Source of the DNA: Sulfurospirillum sp.
Lineage (GTDB): Bacteria > Campylobacterota > Campylobacteria > Campylobacterales > Arcobacteraceae
Assembly: GCA_030491005.1 (NCBI GenBank)
Contig: JAKZMJ010000030.1
Location: 1 to 64,000, forward strand
Length of the DNA stretch: 64,000 nt
Reading direction: 5' to 3'
Shown here: one piece after another, positions 2,672 through 47,099 of the stretch
How positions within the stretch are numbered: position 1 is the stretch's first letter
How the letters are laid out: every line of letters begins with the position of its first letter
Notes under the pieces: model-generated
What the model saw: only the letters and a program-made list of their open reading frames with translations
The model's database searches: none
Told to the model about the DNA's origin: nothing
Made by a program: the position numbers and the translations under genes

Positions 2672-3949
2672 ATGGCACTAATTGCTTTATTTATAATTTT
2701 AATGGGTACTTTAGTTATAGGAACCCCAATAGCAATTGCTTTTGCTTTATCTTCCTTGGCTTATATCTTAATTGATGGTTTACCAAGTGTACTATTACTA
2801 CATACTATGCTTGGAGGTATTGATAGTTTTCCTCTTTTAGCTATTCCATTTTTTATTTTTGCAGGTCACCTAATGAATGGTGCAGGATTAACAGATAAGA
2901 TTTTTGATTTTGCGAAATCAATTGTTGGTTGTTTCCCAGGAGGTCTTGGATATGTAAATGTTGGTTCAAGTGTAATTTTTGCAGGAATGTCTGGAGCTGC
3001 TGTTGCTGATGCTGGAGGTTTAGGTTTAGTAGAGATAAAAGCCATGCGAAAAGCAGGTTATGATGATGATTTCTCAGTTGGAATTACAGCTGCATCTTCT
3101 ATTATTGGTCCCATTATTCCTCCTTCTTTACCTATGGTTATTTTTGGAGTAATGGCATCAACCTCAATTGGAAAATTATTTGCTGCTGGAATTATACCTG
3201 GTTTATTAATGGCTTTATCTTTGATGTTTATGGTGTATTATTTATCTAAAAAAAGAAATTATCCTGTAGATAATACATTTTCATTTTCTGTTGTTTGGTA
3301 TTTTTTTAAAAAAGCAATTCTACCTTTATTAATGCCTATTATAATTGTTGGGGGGATTGTTTCAGGAGCATTTACTCCAACAGAAGCTGCGGTATGTGCC
3401 TCTTTTTATGCCTTATTTTTAGGTGTAGTAGTATATAAAAGTTTGAAATTCAAAGATATAATTTCTATTTCAGTAGAAACAATAGAAACAACTTCTTCGA
3501 TTTTATTTATAGTTGCAGGAGCTGCTATTTTTGCATGGATTTTAACGGCTAACCAAGTTGCTAATCTTTTTGCTGATAATTTATTACAAATTACAACTGA
3601 TCCTACTTTAGTATTATTTATTATTATGGGTGTGGTTTTAATTATTGGTTTATTTATGGAAACAATTGCGGCCATTACTATTTTAGTACCTATTTTAATG
3701 CCTATTGCTTTGACTGTTGGTATTGATCCCGTTCATTTAGGAATAGTTGTTATTTTAACCTTAATGTTAGGTTTGTTAACTCCTCCTGTTGGAATGGTCT
3801 TGTATGTACTGTCTAAAGTTGCAAAAGTACCTTTTGAAAGATGTGTTAAGGCAACATCCATTTTTCTCGTACCTTTAGTTATTGTACTTATTTTACTTAT
3901 AATATTTCCAAGTATAGTAATGTATATTCCTAATCTATTTTTTTCATAA
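2672..3949 (+). CDS. dctM: TRAP transporter large permease DctM
   Basis: A 425-residue, about 12-TM protein that carries the ion-coupled transport path. Family motifs are clear: PLLAIPFFIFAGHLMNGAG near the N-terminus, FAGMSGAAVADAGGLG, IIPPSLPMVIFGVMA, GAFTPTEAAV, and the C-terminal GLLTPPVGMVLYVLSKVA. Length and motif order are those of an intact DctM. It ends the dctPQM operon, and a strong hairpin terminator follows within about 35 bp. Confidence 0.94.
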   Translation: MALIALFIILMGTLVIGTPIAIAFALSSLAYILIDGLPSVLLLHTMLGGIDSFPLLAIPFFIFAGHLMNGAGLTDKIFDFAKSIVGCFPGGLGYVNVGSSVIFAGMSGAAVADAGGLGLVEIKAMRKAGYDDDFSVGITAASSIIGPIIPPSLPMVIFGVMASTSIGKLFAAGIIPGLLMALSLMFMVYYLSKKRNYPVDNTFSFSVVWYFFKKAILPLLMPIIIVGGIVSGAFTPTEAAVCASFYALFLGVVVYKSLKFKDIISISVETIETTSSILFIVAGAAIFAWILTANQVANLFADNLLQITTDPTLVLFIIMGVVLIIGLFMETIAAITILVPILMPIALTVGIDPVHLGIVVILTLMLGLLTPPVGMVLYVLSKVAKVPFERCVKATSIFLVPLVIVLILLIIFPSIVMYIPNLFFS

Positions 3950-3981
3950 AGGTAGTTTTTAGATTATTTTGAAGAATGAAT

Positions 3982-4018
3982 ACACCCCTACCCTAAAAGT
4001 ATGGGGTGTCTTTCTTTT
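3982..4018 (+). terminator. Intrinsic terminator after dctPQM
   Basis: ACACCCC (3982-3988) pairs perfectly with GGGGTGT (4003-4009) around a 14-nt loop, and the T-rich tract CTTTCTTTTATT follows. It sits between the convergent dctM and znuA-like genes and is strongest for the plus strand. Confidence 0.8.
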
Positions 4019-4019
4019 A

Positions 4020-4922
4020 TTAATATTTTTGATTTACTAAAGGTATTCTTACAATTTCATTTGCTAGTTTTATTAAATTTTTCTTTATATTAAAAGCTAA
4101 GGGATCCATAAGTACAAGCTTAGTATTAATACTTCTTGCAATAATTTTTGCTTTTTCTTGTGAAAATTGAGGAGAAACAAATATTTTTTTAATCTCTTTT
4201 TTTCTAATCTTTTTGATTAATTGTATTAATTCATTTGCTTTTATTTCTTTACCTTCATTTTGTATTTCTATTTGTTCTAAATTATATCGCTTAGCAAAGT
4301 ATCCCCATGATGGATGAAAAACTACAAATGCTAGATTTGAATGCTTTGTAAAAATATTTATTAAATTAGTATTTAATAGGTCTAATTCTTTTATAAAAGC
4401 AAGATAATTTTTCGTATAAAAAGCTTCATTTTTTTTATCAATTTTTATTAAAGCTTCATACATAGTTTTAGCTTGTATTTTAACTAGCAAGGGGTCTAGC
4501 CAAATATGGGGGTCTTGGGTGTCATTATCTTCCATATCTTTGTGATGCTCTTCATCATTATGATTTTCTTCATTATGATTTTCTTCATGATGATGACCTT
4601 CCATACTTAGTTTTTTAATACCTTTTGAAGTATCTATAAATAATGTTTTAGGAGCATTACTTTTAAATTTAGCTAACCATACAAACTCAAAAGGTACACC
4701 AATAGAAAAATATATTTTTGACTTTGATAATAATTTCATTTGTGAACTTTTTGGTTCATAATTTTCAGGACTAAAGCCTTGTTTTAGCATTACATTTATT
4801 GTAAATTTATTTTGCGTGATTTTTTTAAGTATATACTTTTGGGGTAAAATACTAACGGTAATTTCATTTGAAGAAAATACAAAACTAGTTAATACAAATA
4901 AAGTAATAAAAATAATCTTCAT
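4020..4922 (-). CDS. Zinc ABC transporter substrate-binding protein, ZnuA-like
   Basis: A 300-residue metal-binding periplasmic lipocalin-unrelated receptor of the cluster A-I (ZnuA/TroA) family with a signal peptide (MKIIFITLFVLTSFVFS). Recognisable features are VSILPQKYILKKI at the mature N-terminus, GFSPENYEPK, a His/Glu/Asp-rich loop at about 110-140 (HHHEENHNEENHN), then QDPHIWLDPLL with a metal-ligand His, and VFHPSWGYFAKRY. The flexible His loop is typical of zinc rather than manganese receptors. No ZnuB permease or ZnuC ATPase is adjacent; it follows the aldehyde dehydrogenase by 33 bp on the same strand. It presumably works with permeases encoded elsewhere. Confidence 0.87.
   Translation of the reverse strand: MKIIFITLFVLTSFVFSSNEITVSILPQKYILKKITQNKFTINVMLKQGFSPENYEPKSSQMKLLSKSKIYFSIGVPFEFVWLAKFKSNAPKTLFIDTSKGIKKLSMEGHHHEENHNEENHNDEEHHKDMEDNDTQDPHIWLDPLLVKIQAKTMYEALIKIDKKNEAFYTKNYLAFIKELDLLNTNLINIFTKHSNLAFVVFHPSWGYFAKRYNLEQIEIQNEGKEIKANELIQLIKKIRKKEIKKIFVSPQFSQEKAKIIARSINTKLVLMDPLAFNIKKNLIKLANEIVRIPLVNQKY
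4557..4586 (-). repeat. 15-bp tandem repeat inside the ZnuA histidine loop
   Basis: Plus-strand ATTATGATTTTCTTC occurs twice head to tail (4557-4571 and 4572-4586). Being 15 bp, it is in frame and encodes a repeated five-residue His/Asn/Glu unit of the metal-binding loop, so slippage would change loop length without a frameshift. Confidence 0.8.
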
Positions 4923-4955
4923 CTAAAGCCTTTTAATAAATATCTACACTAAATT

Positions 4956-6347
4956 TTATAATACATCTGATTTAATAACCATTAGTTTTTCTTTGCTCAT
5001 TTCTATCATAGAGTGATGAATTCCACCCATTCCAAGACCACTTTCTTTTGCACCTCCAAATGGCATCCAATCAACTCTAAATGCAGTATGGTCATTTACC
5101 ATTACAGAAGTTCCACTTAATCTTTTAACTGCTTTTAAGGCAGTATCAATATTTTTAGTAAAAATTGAAGCTTGGAAAGACACTTCTAGTTTATTTGCTT
5201 CATCAAAAGCAACTTCTATATCACTATAAGGATAAATACAAACAACTGGTCCAAATACTTCTTTAGTAGACACTAGTGCATCAGAAGCTGGATTTAAAAT
5301 AACAGTTGGTTCATAAGTAGATGCAGAAATTCTTTTTCCACCTGTTAATATTTTCCCACCTTTAGTAATAGCTTCATTAACCCACTCCTCAACTCTATTA
5401 ACTTCATTATGATTAATTAATGGACCAACTTGTGTTTTAGGATTTAATTGATCTCCTACAACTAATTTTGAAGCATAAGTGCTTAATTTAGAAGCTACAA
5501 TATCTACAAGCGATTCATGTACAAATACTCTTTGAACAGATACACAAACTTGTCCTGCATGGTAAAAAGCACCTTTGCCAATTGAAGGAATTAAATCTTC
5601 AATGTTGGCATCAGCTTCAACAATAACAGGTGCAACTCCACCATGCTCTAATGCAACTCTAGTTCCAGATGCAACTTTAGAGTTAAGATACCAACCAACT
5701 TTCCCTGAACCAATAAATGTTAAAAAATTAATTTTAGAAGATGTTGCAAGTAATTCACCAGCCTCTCTTCCACAAACAATAGCTTGAGCCCAACCATTTG
5801 GAAGCCCAGCTTCTTTTAGTATTTCTATTAATTTTAAAGCTGACATAGGAGTTTGTGTTGCTGGTTTAATAATGACTGAACAACCAACAGCAAGAGCAGG
5901 GATTACTTGATGAATTGCTAAGTTAAATGGGTGATTAAATGCTGAAATTGCAGCAACCACACCAATAGGTTCTTTAAAAGTATAAGCCATTCTATTTGCA
6001 CTAGATGCCGTATGTCCCATAGCTATTTCTTTTCCTTCAAATGAACTTAAAGATTCAATAGCAAGTTTAACACCATTTATAGCTCTATGTATTTCAACTT
6101 GTGAATCCATATAAGGTTTACCACCTTCACTTGCACAAAGAATTGTAAGTTCTTCAATTTGAGAACTCATAATCTTTACAACTTTTTCCAAAATTTCAAT
6201 TCTTTTGTATTTAGGAATTGCACTTTTATGGTCATCAAAAGTACTTTTTGCTAAATTAATTGCTGTTTGCATTTCTTCTACACTTGAAAATGGAACTGTT
6301 CCTACTATTTTACCATCAAATGGTGATGTTACTTCTATTGTGTTCAT
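4956..6347 (-). CDS. NAD(P)-dependent aldehyde dehydrogenase family protein
   Basis: A 463-residue soluble ALDH-superfamily enzyme that oxidises an aldehyde to the acid or acyl product. The catalytic Cys is at about residue 268 (HAGQVCVSVQR), the general-base Glu at about 234 (ALEHGG), the conserved Asn in AFNHPFN at about 138, and the cofactor Gly motif is FIGSGKVGW. The family's usual LELGG reads LEHGG here. It resembles glycolaldehyde/lactaldehyde-type members more than betaine or acylating types, but the substrate is not determinable. It lies 27 bp after the ThDP enzyme gene on the same strand, which suggests that the two act in sequence on the same carbonyl metabolite. Confidence 0.88.
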   Translation of the reverse strand: MNTIEVTSPFDGKIVGTVPFSSVEEMQTAINLAKSTFDDHKSAIPKYKRIEILEKVVKIMSSQIEELTILCASEGGKPYMDSQVEIHRAINGVKLAIESLSSFEGKEIAMGHTASSANRMAYTFKEPIGVVAAISAFNHPFNLAIHQVIPALAVGCSVIIKPATQTPMSALKLIEILKEAGLPNGWAQAIVCGREAGELLATSSKINFLTFIGSGKVGWYLNSKVASGTRVALEHGGVAPVIVEADANIEDLIPSIGKGAFYHAGQVCVSVQRVFVHESLVDIVASKLSTYASKLVVGDQLNPKTQVGPLINHNEVNRVEEWVNEAITKGGKILTGGKRISASTYEPTVILNPASDALVSTKEVFGPVVCIYPYSDIEVAFDEANKLEVSFQASIFTKNIDTALKAVKRLSGTSVMVNDHTAFRVDWMPFGGAKESGLGMGGIHHSMIEMSKEKLMVIKSDVL

Positions 6348-6374
6348 TTTTTTCCTTTTACTTTATATAGTTTA

Positions 6375-8021
6375 CTAAATCATACACTGTTTTTTAGCTA
6401 ATAAATCATTTAAAATTGAATGATTTAAAGAATAGTCAACAGCTAAATCAATTAAGTGAACACCTTTTCCATTTACACATTTATCTAAAATTTGTGCAAA
6501 ATCTTCACAAGAAGTTGGTCTATGTCCACTTGCTCCATAAGACTGGGCATATTTAACAAAATCAGGATTACCTAAATCTAAACCATAATTTTCAAATCCC
6601 ATACCTGCTTGTTTCCATTTAATCATTCCATAAGAGTTATCATTTAAAATAATAACAGTCAAATCAAGATTTAATCTAACGGCTGTTTCCATTTCTTGTG
6701 AGTTCATCATAAAACCACCATCTCCACAAACGCAAACAACCTTTGAATTAGGTTTAACCATTTTTGCAGCCATTCCAGAAGGAAGTCCTGCTCCCATAGT
6801 TGCTAAGGCATTATCTAATAATAAAGTATTAGGTAATGCACATCTATAGTTTCTAGCAAACCATATTTTATAAACACCATTATCAAGTGTTACAATATCT
6901 TTATCATCTAATATTTGTCTAATAGTTCTAACTGCTCTTTGTGGTAAAATAGGAAATCTTGTATCACCAAAATATTTACTTAAATGAGTTTTTATTTCAC
7001 TAACCATTCTAATATAATAATCAAAATCCCAATGCTCTTGCTTTGAAATTGCATTAGTAAATGCTTCAATATTTCCAGCAATATCACCTATTACATCTAA
7101 TTGAGGAAAATAAGTATCATCAACTTCAGATGGAAAAAAGTTAACATGCAATACTTCTGTTGCACCTTCGTGATTTTCCATAAAAAATGGTGGTTTTTCA
7201 ATAACATCATGACCTACATTTATAATCAAATCAGCTCGCTCAATTGCACAATGAATGAAATCACCAGATGAAAGTGCAGCTGTACTTAAACAAAGCTTAT
7301 GATTTTCATCAATTACACCTTTTCCCATTTGTGTTGAGAAAAAAGGAATACCTGTTTCATTTATAAAATTTATAAGTGCATCTCCTATTCTATTTCTGTT
7401 TGCTCCTGCTCCTACAAGTAAAAGAGGTCTTTTTGCTTTTTCAATCATTTTAATAGCATCTAATACAGCTGTTTTATCAGCTTGTGGGTATCTAAAATTT
7501 TGCACAGGATAGATATTGTCTTCTACTTCTTCTTCTGCAATATCTTCAGGCAATTCAATATGCACAGCACCAGGTCGCTCAGTTGTTGCTATTTTAAAAG
7601 CTTCTCTTACCATTGATGGAATATTATTTCCATTTACTACTTGTTTTGCATATTTAGTCATGGGCTTCATCATACCAACAATATCAATAATCTGAAATCT
7701 TCCTTGTTTTGACTTTTTAATTGGTTTTTGCCCTGTTATCATAAGCATAGGCATTCCACCTAATTGTGCATAAGCAGCAGCTGTTGCAAAGTTAGTTGCA
7801 CCTGGTCCAAGAGTTGCCAAACAAACACCAACTTTTCCAGTTAGTCTTCCATAAGTTGCAGCCATAAAACCTGCACCTTGTTCGTGTCTTGTTAAAATTA
7901 GTTTAATCTTTGATGTTCTAAGTGATTCTAAGAAATCTAAGTTTTCCTCACCTGGTATTCCAAAAATATACTCTACACCCTCATTTTCTAAGGCCTTTAT
8001 AAATAAATCTGATGCTTTCAT
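6375..8021 (-). CDS. Thiamine diphosphate-dependent enzyme, acetolactate synthase large-subunit family
   Basis: A 548-residue three-domain ThDP enzyme. It shows FGIPGEENLDF at the N-terminus, the catalytic Glu in LTRHEQGAGFMA (about residue 47), ATLGPGATNFATA, and the C-terminal ThDP/Mg signature beginning VCGDGGFMMNSQEMETA and ending NDNSYGMI. The C-terminal LIDLAVDYSLN resembles catabolic AlsS-type synthases, and no regulatory (IlvN) subunit is adjacent, so a catabolic or specialised carboligase or decarboxylase is as likely as amino-acid biosynthesis. With the following aldehyde dehydrogenase it probably forms a two-step pathway of unknown substrate. It is divergent from pxpA across 416 bp. 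Confidence 0.85.
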   Translation of the reverse strand: MKASDLFIKALENEGVEYIFGIPGEENLDFLESLRTSKIKLILTRHEQGAGFMAATYGRLTGKVGVCLATLGPGATNFATAAAYAQLGGMPMLMITGQKPIKKSKQGRFQIIDIVGMMKPMTKYAKQVVNGNNIPSMVREAFKIATTERPGAVHIELPEDIAEEEVEDNIYPVQNFRYPQADKTAVLDAIKMIEKAKRPLLLVGAGANRNRIGDALINFINETGIPFFSTQMGKGVIDENHKLCLSTAALSSGDFIHCAIERADLIINVGHDVIEKPPFFMENHEGATEVLHVNFFPSEVDDTYFPQLDVIGDIAGNIEAFTNAISKQEHWDFDYYIRMVSEIKTHLSKYFGDTRFPILPQRAVRTIRQILDDKDIVTLDNGVYKIWFARNYRCALPNTLLLDNALATMGAGLPSGMAAKMVKPNSKVVCVCGDGGFMMNSQEMETAVRLNLDLTVIILNDNSYGMIKWKQAGMGFENYGLDLGNPDFVKYAQSYGASGHRPTSCEDFAQILDKCVNGKGVHLIDLAVDYSLNHSILNDLLAKKQCMI

Positions 8022-41765: not shown

Positions 41766-41867
41766 TCGAATATATTATAATTTTGATATTTTTTGTGTGC
41801 ATTTACACTATAAGTCGTTATGCTTTTTAAATTATTATTTATGGGTAGTTTTGTTTAAAGGAAAATT

Positions 41868-42362
41868 TTGTTAAAGATAAAAAATTTAAAAGAAAATGTG
41901 CTGGAATATATTTATGTTATTTCTAAGCAACCTATTTTATTAAGAGATTTACTAATTGCAAATAGACAATATAATGAAGGTATGCATGTTGAATCTGCAA
42001 AGTTAGGTTTTAGATTGATTTTGTCAAGAGCATATTTTGTTTATACACTATTTATTTTATTTATTTTATTACCTGTTTTTGTCTTAACTCATCAACAATT
42101 AGCATACATAGACTCACATATATCAATCATGGGAGCAGTTGTAATAACTGCTATAATTTTTATGGGTTTTAACTTTTTTAAATCAAAATTAAGAGATGTT
42201 ATTACTTTAAAACTTATACAAAGATCTTGGAAGCTTCATTTTCCTTATTTTTCTTATGAAGAATACTCTTTTAAAATAGAGGCAATTTTTGAAAAATCAT
42301 TGAAAAATGAAATTTCAAAACGAAATCTTGAAAAATATATTTTAGATAGTCTTTCTACTTAA
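41868..42362 (+). CDS. Two-TM protein of unknown function
   Basis: A 164-residue protein starting at TTG (41868), supported by AAAGGA at 41857-41862. It has two membrane helices (about 57-76 and 88-108) and cytosolic charged ends (LRDLLIANRQYNEGMHVES; SKLRDVITLKLIQRSWKLHF). No family is recognised. It lies 102 bp after fliD; whether it is part of the flagellar operon is uncertain. Confidence 0.6.
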   Translation: MLKIKNLKENVLEYIYVISKQPILLRDLLIANRQYNEGMHVESAKLGFRLILSRAYFVYTLFILFILLPVFVLTHQQLAYIDSHISIMGAVVITAIIFMGFNFFKSKLRDVITLKLIQRSWKLHFPYFSYEEYSFKIEAIFEKSLKNEISKRNLEKYILDSLST

Positions 42363-42407
42363 AAAGCTATTCACACTTAAAGTGTAACAAAACCACCTAA
42401 ACTTAGG

Positions 42408-42498
42408 ATACTTAATGCCCTTATCAAACTTAAATAATGAACAATTAAATCATACTTACCAAAGTATTTTTAATACTACTATATTTGTTTTTATTTAA
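42408..42498 (+). pseudogene. Duplicated 5' fragment of the UvrD-type helicase gene
   Basis: Bases 42408-42450 match 45053-45095 at 42 of 43 positions, including the helicase ATG and its first 12 codons. The fragment's frame begins at 42415 (MPLSNLNNEQLN) and then runs into unrelated sequence, stopping at 42496-42498. It is therefore a partial copy, not a functional gene. The 43-bp direct repeats bracket the trpD2-msrP-msrQ block. Confidence 0.8.
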
Positions 42499-42515
42499 TT
42501 AAACCAAATTTTCTG

Positions 42516-42521
42516 TATAAT
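42516..42521 (+). promoter_or_regulatory. -10 box of the TrpD2-like gene
   Basis: TATAAT lies 34 bp before the ATG at 42556, with a ribosome site (AAAAGG) near 42542-42548. This is a probable promoter for trpD2-like and msrPQ. Confidence 0.5.
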
Positions 42522-42555
42522 AAATATGAAAGTTAAGATAAGAAAAGGTAAATAA

Positions 42556-43449
42556 ATGGATTTTCAAACATATATTAGAGCTGTAGGAACTGGACCTAAA
42601 CTAAATAGAGAACTTACAAAAGAAGAAGTATACGATGCAATTACACAAATATTAGAGAAAAAAGTTTTATCTGAGAGAATATGTGCATTTTTATTAGGTT
42701 GGAGGGTTAGGCTTGAAAGCAATGAAGAATTAAAAGCTACACTTGAAGTATTTGATAAATATATTATTAAAAAGAATATTCCAAACTCAATAGAGTTAGC
42801 TTATCCCTATGATGGTAAAGCAAAAACTCCTTATTTGTTTCCTTTATATGCAAAATATTTAAAACAATTTGATTTAAGTCTAATAATATCAGGGGATTAT
42901 TTACAACCTGCAAAAAAAGGAATAACTACAAAAGATATATGCACTAATATCATTTTAGATGAGAATATAAAGTATTTTGATAGAAAAGATTATTTTATAG
43001 AATTAAGCAATTTAACAAAAATTAGAAATATTTTAGGATTAAGAACCATCTTTAATACTTGTGAAAAGCTTTTAAATCCTGCAAATTCCGATTTTGCTAT
43101 TGTAAGTGCTTTTCATAAACCTTATGTAGAAAAATATAATACAATATTTGCAAATAGATATAAACAATTAAGCATTGTTAAAGGCAGTGAGGGAACGGCT
43201 GAAGTATTTGCTAAGTGTAGATATTGGATAAATAAAAATAATGTTTTAGAAGAGTACACAATAGACCCACAATATTTTGGTATAAAATATGAAAGTGTTG
43301 ATAATAAAATATCTCTTGAACAATCATTAGATTTTATAAATAATCCATCGCCCACATTAGAAAAACTTGCCAAATTAAATGTAGCTTTATTACTACATAG
43401 TGCAAATAAAGTAAAAAGTATAAATGAAGCTTATGAGATGTTAAATTAA
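42556..43449 (+). CDS. TrpD2/YbiB-like anthranilate phosphoribosyltransferase-family protein
   Basis: A 297-residue protein with the nucleoside-phosphorylase/TrpD two-domain fold: helical N-terminal domain (FQTYIRAVGTGPKLNRELT, then ERICAFLLGWRVRLES) and an alpha/beta part with AYPYDGKAKTPYLFP in place of the PRPP-binding GTGGD motif of true TrpD. YbiB homologues lack the enzyme activity and bind nucleic acid. Hence tryptophan synthesis is unlikely. It shares the strand with msrPQ but is 48 bp apart. Confidence 0.82.
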   Translation: MDFQTYIRAVGTGPKLNRELTKEEVYDAITQILEKKVLSERICAFLLGWRVRLESNEELKATLEVFDKYIIKKNIPNSIELAYPYDGKAKTPYLFPLYAKYLKQFDLSLIISGDYLQPAKKGITTKDICTNIILDENIKYFDRKDYFIELSNLTKIRNILGLRTIFNTCEKLLNPANSDFAIVSAFHKPYVEKYNTIFANRYKQLSIVKGSEGTAEVFAKCRYWINKNNVLEEYTIDPQYFGIKYESVDNKISLEQSLDFINNPSPTLEKLAKLNVALLLHSANKVKSINEAYEMLN

Positions 43450-43497
43450 TAAGTCCAAATAAAATGTTAAAAGATAAAAATGTGAAAGGATAACAAA

Positions 43498-44475
43498 ATG
43501 AAAAAGAAATCATGGCATATAAGTGAAAACGAAGTAACTCCTGTAAATATCTTTAATAAAAGAAGAGATTTTTTAAAATTAGGAATTGCAAGTGTACTTA
43601 CAAGCTCATATATATTTGAATCTTTTGCACAAGAAACTTCAAAAATACAAACTTCAAAAGTAAAAGGTGACATAAAAAAACTGCTATTTAAAAAAGATAA
43701 GAACTTAAAAAACTTAGATTTAAATACCTATAAACAAATTACTTCATATAACAACTTTTATGAATTTACAACGAATAAAGAAAGAGTTAAAAAACTATCT
43801 CATACTTTAAACACAAATAATTGGAAAATACAAATTGATGGATTAGTAGAGAAACCTTTTAGTATAGATATTGAAAGTTTAATTAAAAAATTTACATTAG
43901 AAGAAAGAATTTATAGATTTAGATGTGTTGAGGGTTGGTCTATGGTTGTGCCTTGGATTGGTTTTTCTTTATCAAGTTTAATAAAATTAGCAAAACCACT
44001 TTCTAAAGCAAAATATATTAGATTTGAAACAAAATTTGATGATGAAATGTTTCCAGATCAAGCACGAGGAGTTTTTGCTACTATGGATTATCCTTATGTT
44101 GAAGCTTTACGAATGGATGAAGCTATGAATGACTTAAGCATTTTAGCTCTTGGATTATATGGTTCCTTAATGCCAAATCAAAACGGAGCTCCTATTAGAC
44201 TAATAGTGCCTTGGAAATATGGCTTTAAGTCTATTAAATCTATCTCAAAAATAAGTTTTGTGGAAAAAGAACCTATAAATTCTTGGCAAAAAGCAAATTC
44301 AAAAGAATATGGATTTTATGCTAATGTTAATCCAAATGTTGATCACCCAAGATGGTCACAAAAAAAAGAAAGAGTTTTAGGAAAGTTTTTTAAACAAAAA
44401 ACACAACTATTTAATTCTTATGAAAAAGAAGTAGCACATCTTTATAAAAATATGGATTTAACAAAATATATTTAA
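43498..44475 (+). CDS. msrP: Protein-methionine-sulfoxide reductase catalytic subunit MsrP
   Basis: A 325-residue molybdenum-dependent periplasmic enzyme that reduces oxidised methionine in envelope proteins. It has the Tat signal KRRDFLKLGIASVL (about 20-40), the Mo-coordinating Cys in YRFRCVEGWSMVVPW, GLYGSLMPNQNGAPIRLIVPW and the C-terminal NPNVDHPRWSQ. It uses electrons from MsrQ, whose gene begins at its stop codon (1-bp overlap). Confidence 0.95.
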   Translation: MKKKSWHISENEVTPVNIFNKRRDFLKLGIASVLTSSYIFESFAQETSKIQTSKVKGDIKKLLFKKDKNLKNLDLNTYKQITSYNNFYEFTTNKERVKKLSHTLNTNNWKIQIDGLVEKPFSIDIESLIKKFTLEERIYRFRCVEGWSMVVPWIGFSLSSLIKLAKPLSKAKYIRFETKFDDEMFPDQARGVFATMDYPYVEALRMDEAMNDLSILALGLYGSLMPNQNGAPIRLIVPWKYGFKSIKSISKISFVEKEPINSWQKANSKEYGFYANVNPNVDHPRWSQKKERVLGKFFKQKTQLFNSYEKEVAHLYKNMDLTKYI

Positions 44476-45035
44476 TGAAATATTTTTTTATTTTTGCCCT
44501 CTTATTAGCTCCTTTAGTTTTTCTATTTGTAAAACTTTTTATTATTGAAGTAAATGACCCTATAAAGTATATATTTAGTATAAGTGGTGCAACGGCTATT
44601 GTATTATTACTTATAAGTATTAGTATACCATTGATAAAAAAATGGATAAACTTATTAAAATACAGAAAAACTGTTGGTTTATTTGCTTTTTTTTATGCAC
44701 TTTTGCATTTATTAAACTTTGTTATCTTAGATGCAAAATTTAATATAATGTTTATCATAGAAGAGAGTTTAGATAAACCTTTTGTATATTTAGGAATGAT
44801 ATCATTTTTTATATTATTATTTATGGCTCTAAGTTCAAGGGCAAAACTTTTTAAAAAATATAAAAAATATCATCAATTCGTATATTTAGCTTTATTTTTA
44901 GCTTGTGTGCATTTTATTATGGCACAAAAGTCATTGTCAATTTTACAATATATTAATATATTTCTTATTGTTATAATCTTTACTTTTAAAATCAAACAAA
45001 AAATAAATAAAATTTATGCTAAAATTCCAAAATAA
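44475..45035 (+). CDS. msrQ: MsrQ heme-binding membrane subunit
   Basis: A 186-residue protein with five or six membrane helices and heme-ligand histidines in FFYALLHLLNFV, YKKYHQFVYLALFLACVHF. It passes electrons from the quinone pool to MsrP. The length is close to the family's 190-210. It overlaps the msrP stop by one base. Confidence 0.9.
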   Translation: MKYFFIFALLLAPLVFLFVKLFIIEVNDPIKYIFSISGATAIVLLLISISIPLIKKWINLLKYRKTVGLFAFFYALLHLLNFVILDAKFNIMFIIEESLDKPFVYLGMISFFILLFMALSSRAKLFKKYKKYHQFVYLALFLACVHFIMAQKSLSILQYINIFLIVIIFTFKIKQKINKIYAKIPK

Positions 45036-45052
45036 AAACCAATACAAGATTA

Positions 45053-45095
45053 ATACTTAATGCCCTTATCAAACTTAAATAACGAACAATTAAAT
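45053..45095 (+). repeat. 43-bp direct repeat, intact copy at the helicase start
   Basis: This copy covers 7 bp upstream of the ATG and the first 12 codons of the UvrD-type helicase. It matches 42408-42450 at 42 of 43 positions; the single difference is T/C in a third codon position. Confidence 0.9.
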
Positions 45096-47099
45096 GCAGC
45101 TAAATGTGAACAAGGTTACAACCTAATAATTGCTAGTGCAGGAACGGGAAAAACTTCTACGATTGTTGGAAGAATTGGTCACTTATTAAATATAGGTGTT
45201 AAACCAGAAGAAATATTATTATTAACTTTTACAAATAAAGCTGCAAGTGAGATGATAAATAGAATATCTAGTTTTTTTAGTAAAGAACTTGCAAAAAGAA
45301 TTATGGCTGGTACTTTTCATTCTGTATCATATAAATTATTAGAACAGTTAAAAATAAAAATCATATTAAAACAAACAAATGAATTAAAAACTTTGTTTAA
45401 ATCTCTTTATGAAAAAAGAGTTTTTTATGATAGAGATGATAAAACAAATCCTTATGATGGTTCTTACTTATATGACTTATACTCTTTATATTTAAATTCA
45501 AATAATGACGAAGAATTTGCAGAATGGATACTAGAAAAAAATTCTGCACACCACTTATATACCATGATTTATGAAGATGTTATATTAGAATTTAATGAAC
45601 TTAAAGAACAATACTCTTATGTAAATTTTGATGATTTATTATTAAATATGTTAAAAGCACTGGAAAATAATACTTTTAATTTTCAAGAAATTCTTGTTGA
45701 TGAATATCAAGATACAAATTCTTTACAAGGTAAATTATTAAATAAATTCAATGCAAAAGCTTTATTTTGTGTTGGAGATTATGATCAAAGTATTTATGCT
45801 TTTAATGGTTCAGATATCAATATCATTTCTAGCTTTTCAAAAAGATATCAAAATGCCCAAGTTTTCACACTTACAAAAAATTATAGATCAACAAAATCTA
45901 TTTTAGACTTAGCAACAAAAGTTATCTCACATAATGAGAGAATATATGATAAAAAACTAGAACTTATTAGAAATACAAGTGATATAAAACCAAAACTTTT
46001 AGCTTTTAATGAGTCGTTTTCACAATATGAACATATCTCAAAACTCATATCCCAAAGTACAAACTCACATGATGAAATAGCTGTTATTTATAGAAATAAT
46101 TCAAGTGCTGATGGTATTGAAGCAAATTTAAGAGAATACGAAATACCTTCTAAAAGAAAAGGAGGTATGTCTTTTTTTGATTCAATTGAGGTTAGATTTG
46201 TGATTGATATTTTATTAATGCAAATATCCAATAATGATATGATGGCTTTTATACATATCTTAGAACACGGAAAAGGTATAGGAAAAGCTATTTCAAAAGA
46301 TATTTTTGATGCTTTGATTAAGTTAGGCAAAGGTAATATTTTTGAAGGTTTTTTTAATCCAGATATAAATATTAAAAATCCTTATGAATCTAATAAAATA
46401 AAAAATATCCAGCTTGGACTTTTTGATGATTTTTTAGAATTAGGCTCTGTTTCAAAATTTAAAAATTGTAGTTTTAGTGAGGCATTTTTGGGTAACCCCA
46501 TATTAAAACATCCAAAATTAAATATAGATGGGGCTAAATATATATATGATTTTTATTTATTATTAAAACATCTAAAAAAGACAAAAAATCCTCTTACTTT
46601 AGTTACAAATATTTGTTCGTCCATGATGTACTCAAAGTTAAAAGATTCACTAACAACAAAAAGGGCTAGTTTAAAAGATGGTTCTATTGATACCATGCTT
46701 AAAACAAAATCATTAGCAAAGATAAATAGAAAAAGTTTTATTTTAAAAAATATTGCTAAAAAATATACAAGGCTAGATAAGTTTATTAATTCAATGATTT
46801 TAGGAGCTTCTGAGATGGCACAAGGGGAGGGAGTAAATCTTTTATCTATTCATGCTTCAAAAGGATTAGAATTTAAAGAAGTTTATATCATAGACTTAAT
46901 GCAAGGAAGATTTCCAAATAATAAACTAATCAGTAAAGGTGGTAGTTTAGAAGAAGAAAGACGCTTGTTTTATGTGGCAGTTACACGAGCTAAAGATATA
47001 TTATATTTATCTTTTGCTAGATATGACAAAATTAAAAAAATGAATTATGTACCATCTGTATTTTTAAAAGAAGCTAGTTTAATAAAAAGTGATGATTAA
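45060..47099 (+). CDS. UvrD/Rep-type ATP-dependent DNA helicase
   Basis: A 679-residue superfamily 1A helicase. Walker A is ASAGTGKTSTIVGRI (about 26-34), motif II is VDEYQDTN, motif III VGDYDQSIYAFNG, motif IV LTKNYRSTKSI, motif V LLSIHASKGLEFKEVYII and motif VI RRLFYVAVTRAKD. It translocates 3' to 5' along single-stranded DNA in repair or restart. The first 12 codons are duplicated at 42.4 kb. It begins 24 bp after msrQ without a clear ribosome site. Confidence 0.92.
   Translation: MPLSNLNNEQLNAAKCEQGYNLIIASAGTGKTSTIVGRIGHLLNIGVKPEEILLLTFTNKAASEMINRISSFFSKELAKRIMAGTFHSVSYKLLEQLKIKIILKQTNELKTLFKSLYEKRVFYDRDDKTNPYDGSYLYDLYSLYLNSNNDEEFAEWILEKNSAHHLYTMIYEDVILEFNELKEQYSYVNFDDLLLNMLKALENNTFNFQEILVDEYQDTNSLQGKLLNKFNAKALFCVGDYDQSIYAFNGSDINIISSFSKRYQNAQVFTLTKNYRSTKSILDLATKVISHNERIYDKKLELIRNTSDIKPKLLAFNESFSQYEHISKLISQSTNSHDEIAVIYRNNSSADGIEANLREYEIPSKRKGGMSFFDSIEVRFVIDILLMQISNNDMMAFIHILEHGKGIGKAISKDIFDALIKLGKGNIFEGFFNPDINIKNPYESNKIKNIQLGLFDDFLELGSVSKFKNCSFSEAFLGNPILKHPKLNIDGAKYIYDFYLLLKHLKKTKNPLTLVTNICSSMMYSKLKDSLTTKRASLKDGSIDTMLKTKSLAKINRKSFILKNIAKKYTRLDKFINSMILGASEMAQGEGVNLLSIHASKGLEFKEVYIIDLMQGRFPNNKLISKGGSLEEERRLFYVAVTRAKDILYLSFARYDKIKKMNYVPSVFLKEASLIKSDD

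Follow-up and report, generated by a model that had tools for sequence, protein, structure and literature searches.

A block of three genes, trpD2-msrP-msrQ, is flanked by 43-bp direct repeats in the window, the whole stretch of 64,000 nucleotides that was analysed (G000:C30:1-64000). Gene order in relatives indicates that the unit trpD2-msrPQ-helicase is native and that the derived side is the left one, where a new junction has replaced the ancestral napA-trpD2 boundary. The best, though tentative, explanation of the left repeat is that it represents a non-functional relic of the helicase start, left at this rearrangement junction by homology-facilitated illegitimate recombination (HFIR). Such a relic would make a clean case of direct repeats that resemble the scar of an insertion and derive from a rearrangement, readable here because synteny was combined with a profile of synonymous divergence. 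The assembly of 2.69 Mb comprises 33 contigs and was compared with one other genome of the genus (G001). We take the names trpD2, msrP and msrQ from an earlier note on this DNA, and Pfam matches back the corresponding folds. According to ORFs and Pfam, the block contains these three metabolic genes only, with neither a transposase nor a recombinase.

A repeat search of the 64-kb window recovered the pair exactly as the earlier note had described it, with 42 of 43 nucleotides identical, position 31 (T/C) being the only one that differs, and a spacing of 2645. Exact direct repeats in the window reach 30 nt, compared with 17-20 nt in 60 order-2 Markov simulations of 64 kb. Therefore, the 43-bp repeat is no chance match. 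A whole-genome search with the 43-mer returned only two significant matches, which were the two copies themselves. In an alignment with the congener, G001 agrees with the right copy at position 31 and the left copy deviates; in the preferred reading, the left copy has since acquired one silent C-to-T change. The content ascribed to the left copy was read in the same way by us (Table 1). Its ATG opens an ORF of 27 codons with a stop at 42498, and the motif AGGA lies just upstream.

Table 1 Features at and around the trpD2-msrPQ block. Positions are those of the window, except in the last line, where they are those of the named loci.
Feature	Position	Strand	Remark
Segment carrying the "hypothetical" gene	41801..42363	+	gene at 41868-42362
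Truncated copy of dispersed repeat	42368..42403	+	model positions 10-45 of 75
Left 43-bp copy	42408..42450	+	7 bp upstream and first 12 helicase codons (including ATG)
Filler, 54 bp	42451..42504	+	A+T-rich; genome search
ATACTTA, first 7 nt of the repeat	42452..42458	+	recurs one base after the end of the copy
Native trpD2 leader	42505..42555	+	homologous to G001 C120 from 11760 on
Stretch of low synonymous divergence from G001	42505..45864	+	right edge near helicase codon 268, approximate
trpD2-like gene	42556..43449	+	Pfam Glycos_trans_3N and Glycos_transf_3
msrP-like molybdopterin oxidoreductase gene	43498..44475	+	Pfam Oxidored_molyb
msrQ-like haem membrane subunit gene	44475..45035	+	Pfam Ferric_reduct
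Right 43-bp copy	45053..45095	+	functional helicase start, native context after msrQ
Helicase gene, UvrD/Rep-type, 679 aa	45060..47099	+	ORFs, Pfam
Other copies of dispersed repeat	L225, L226 and L227 near 1490-1565; L231 near 1467-1541

Contig C120 of G001 shows the order napA (divergent), trpD2, msrP, msrQ and helicase, without the left 43-bp copy. In the family, 15 of 20 loci have msrP and msrQ on the helicase strand and upstream of that gene, nine of them within 500 bp; the five remaining loci are L165 (only 2.5 kb upstream covered), L169, L170, L172 and L173. The same order occurs in both of the named MAG loci; among the matches listed in a contig scan, two loci from near relatives were used (L079 and L081). 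At the cut-offs used, fliD, trpD2, napA and the hypothetical gene were found in none of these 22 loci. The gene napA is the divergent neighbour of trpD2 in 12 of 30 trpD2 loci, one of the 30 being a second copy of the block on contig C21. Thus, this genus brings together two old neighbourhoods, napA-trpD2 and msrPQ-helicase, with the block being native to the helicase.

On the left, the G001 matches to the window run to 41789, after fliD, where the G001 contig ends. The segment 41801-42363 matches a different contig, and the next match begins at trpD2, at 42505. This segment lies between ispH and bioF in G001, not after fliD, and its context varies in other genera. The nap operon of G000 sits elsewhere, on contigs C2 and C23. 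The hypothetical gene itself is present in 36 of the 37 family genomes searched. It stands immediately downstream of the same helicase in G006, G011, G013, G023 and G035, and directly upstream of it in none of the 37. The earlier note had proposed a search for relatives in which the helicase directly follows the fliD-linked hypothetical gene; none of the 37 family genomes has this order, and the two genes are neighbours only in the opposite one. An ancestral adjacency from the hypothetical gene to the helicase was rejected on the same grounds.

The earlier note had proposed that the block was inserted next to the helicase and duplicated its target site, 43 bp long, or that it is a deletion-prone cassette. 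The geometry, a gene block between two direct repeats, resembles a transposon target-site duplication, and the prediction that the helicase would survive recombination between the repeats held: in silico removal of one repeat unit gives an empty site whose helicase does not differ from the present protein of 679 aa. However, the adjacency of block and helicase is native, as seen in G001 and in the msrPQ-helicase order of the family, the block genes include no transposase, the empty site was not found in relatives (37 family genomes searched), and the ends of the C21 block copy do not match the repeats. In addition, 43 bp is far longer than the usual target-site duplication of transposons, and the block has its native place beside the right-hand copy. 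We therefore consider this model highly improbable. The left copy is indeed a scar, as had been suggested, but its formation through target duplication by an inserted block is contradicted by the native synteny. Synteny also led us to reject the idea that foreign DNA entered as a block upstream of the helicase, next to the hypothetical gene. Also highly improbable is a reversible cassette, in which recombination between the repeats would drop the block and give the restored helicase a better ribosome-binding site (AGGA before the left ATG), the block would survive on C21, and populations would switch between the states. If that held, genes for the repair of methionine sulfoxide would be turned on and off together with helicase expression. 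No excised form of the block was found in the genomes searched (the family genomes and the congener G001); the repeats could still serve occasional deletion.

The left junction is a mosaic, in which the isolated hypothetical gene is followed by half of a dispersed repeat, the 43-bp helicase start, the filler and the native trpD2 leader. The dispersed repeat is an intergenic element of about 70 bp. In a model search its window copy had an E value of 1.5e-4, and there were 10 further matches in G000 at E <= 1e-4, including four training copies and two in the stretch common to C2 and C23. The best match of the model in G001 reached only 0.03, with none strong, and no Rfam match was found in the four loci examined. 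The filler has no convincing match in its own genome. With G001 synteny breaking at 42505 and a filler lacking a convincing source, the left junction is of the non-homologous kind that belongs to HFIR.

The heptamer ATACTTA is found at the left end of the 43-bp copy and again just after its right end, with an extra C at the point of return, and the second occurrence doubles as the left arm of a hairpin, ATACTTACCAAAGTAT. Recurrence of the first 7 nt within 0-3 nt after a 43-nt stretch was seen at 78 of 63940 window positions, a background of 0.12%. The heptamer is best accounted for by a short templated insertion, in which a repair or replication strand at the napA-trpD2 breakpoint would have switched via the 7-nt microhomology ATACTTA to the start of the helicase gene, 2.6 kb distant, and returned after copying about 36 nt. 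This explanation is possible and is a close rival of the HFIR reading. It needs a single event only for the 43 bp, and an A that is common to the left and right copies and absent from G001 makes the left copy fit descent from the helicase of this same genome. Against it, the extra C is unaccounted for, the left edge of the copy lies within 4 bp of the truncated end of the dispersed repeat, suggesting a larger breakpoint, and the edge of low divergence inside the helicase would be unexplained. Short-patch double illegitimate recombination (SPDIR) and microhomology template switching produce short ectopic copies of genomic DNA with microhomology at the edge, and the left copy may resemble these. 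It differs from them in that the 43 bp adjoins a large rearrangement, the return junction carries an extra base, and the pre-insertion sequence was not seen.

The comparison of synonymous codons between G000 and G001 revealed a stretch of low change comprising trpD2, msrP, msrQ and helicase codons 1-267 (120/979, 12.3%). The change was 23.4% (266/1139) in the genes on its left (flgH, flgK, fliD and the hypothetical gene; Fisher's exact test: p ~3e-11) and 21.9% (641/2929) on its right (helicase 3′ part and seven genes; p ~1e-11). Four-fold divergence was 0.21 for trpD2, 0.15 for msrP and 0.15 for msrQ, and within the helicase it was 0.12 for codons 1-235 and 0.30 for the remainder. A change-point test, which scans every split point that leaves 40 or more sites to either end, located the helicase break at codon 268 (p = 0.0073 from 20000 permutations). 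The 43 within-genus control pairs gave no value below 0.01, the lowest being 0.04. The ratio of 5′ to 3′ divergence in the helicase, for a split at codon 235 chosen post hoc, was 0.49 here versus 0.71-1.36 in the 43 control pairs. Relative to the helicase 3′ part, napA (0.59), trpD2 (0.76) and msrP (0.62) lay below all control pairs having the gene (n = 3, 7 and 17, respectively), and msrQ (0.80) lay inside the control range.

These divergence data mark a recombination tract relative to G001, covering trpD2, msrP, msrQ and the helicase up to about codon 268. The common ancestor of this tract and its G001 counterpart is more recent than that of the sequence around it. G001 could itself be the recipient. 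Since divergence is also low for napA, which is contiguous with trpD2 in G001 only, the tract once extended past the left junction and included napA; its left edge is therefore no proof of a one-sided insertion here. The tract may rescue the insertion idea of the earlier note, and it fits one-sided homologous joining.

In the preferred HFIR reading, a fragment with trpD2-msrP-msrQ and the 5′ part of the helicase would have met a resident helicase gene. Homologous recombination inside the resident gene would have formed the right side, and a non-homologous join after codon 12 of the resident helicase the left side. As a result, trpD2 would be preceded by the first 43 bp of the resident gene and the block followed by a single intact helicase, a product that HFIR is expected to give. 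This route would also explain why the tract has an edge within the helicase, which would be the homologous junction, with either G001 or G000 as the recipient. HFIR is known from naturally competent bacteria. The events recovered in one study include partial gene duplications (PMC3240628). Compared with these events, the present case is drawn from one genome and one congener, and neither the direction of transfer nor the resident state was seen. Further points weigh against HFIR: none of the 37 family genomes has the arrangement of hypothetical gene and helicase that the model needs as the resident state, the copies differ at 1 of 43 bp versus about 3 expected by our own estimate for lineages at background divergence, and the recurrence of ATACTTA is left unexplained. 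No paper on this junction was noticed among those listed by a literature search. The case also suggests that operons in the family may be shuffled by one-sided homologous joining, with core genes kept intact.

A second trpD2-msrP-msrQ was found at G000:C21:70434-72911 (L002, and L035:8423-10896), identical to the window copy at 2439 of 2478 positions (98.4%), without the helicase and amid insertion sequences. Its trpD2 is identical to that of the window, and nearly all differences are in msrPQ. It matches the window from 42540, 16 bp before trpD2, to 45017, 18 bp short of the msrQ stop. G001 carries the window variant at 22 of the 39 differing positions, the C21 variant at 15 and neither at 2. 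The C21 copy may come from another strain or be a true paralogue, because the assembly has alternative contigs at about 98.4% identity. We rejected it as a product of excision and reintegration, since its two ends lie between the repeats and its trpD2 leader is more like that of G001 than that of the window. L035 also carries, at 3855-7971, nucleotidyltransferase-, E2/E1- and JAB-like genes broken by an insertion sequence, a putative CBASS-like defence operon.

An unlikely explanation of the 43 bp involves this copy. A tandem duplication of trpD2-msrPQ-helicase (5′ part) would have been rearranged in the first msrQ-helicase junction, leaving the 43 bp as a remnant and C21 as the other product. 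C21 indeed stops short of the msrQ stop and lacks the helicase, and its msrPQ differs from the window about as much as the left repeat differs from the right. However, the near-even split of its differences relative to G001 may reflect alleles of two strains in one bin, its match begins only shortly before trpD2, and several events are required. An assembly artefact of a two-strain bin is very unlikely. Near-identical alternative contigs do exist: C23 and C2 are 100% identical over 40254 bp and 98.4% beside it (nap region), and C23 and C15 are 98.5% identical. However, the hypothetical gene, the helicase and the left junction are each single in the bin, and a misjoin at a 43-bp repeat would not make the junction of 43 bp and filler. 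Contigs C2, C23 and C15 show that the assembly mixes strains or contains large duplications.

Among 448 kb of own sequence, 11 short pairs of dispersed duplications were listed, and no second case of a gene start copied into an intergenic junction was recognised among them. A broken gene, presumably of an integron-type integrase by resemblance, lies beside both nap copies (L047:3117-4325; L048:135-725 and 3200-4379), and its G001 match spans its whole length (C212). On C23, a second copy of the 5′ part of this integrase gene lies 3 kb upstream, with about 2.5 kb of other genes in between, which makes another gene-start repeat around a block.
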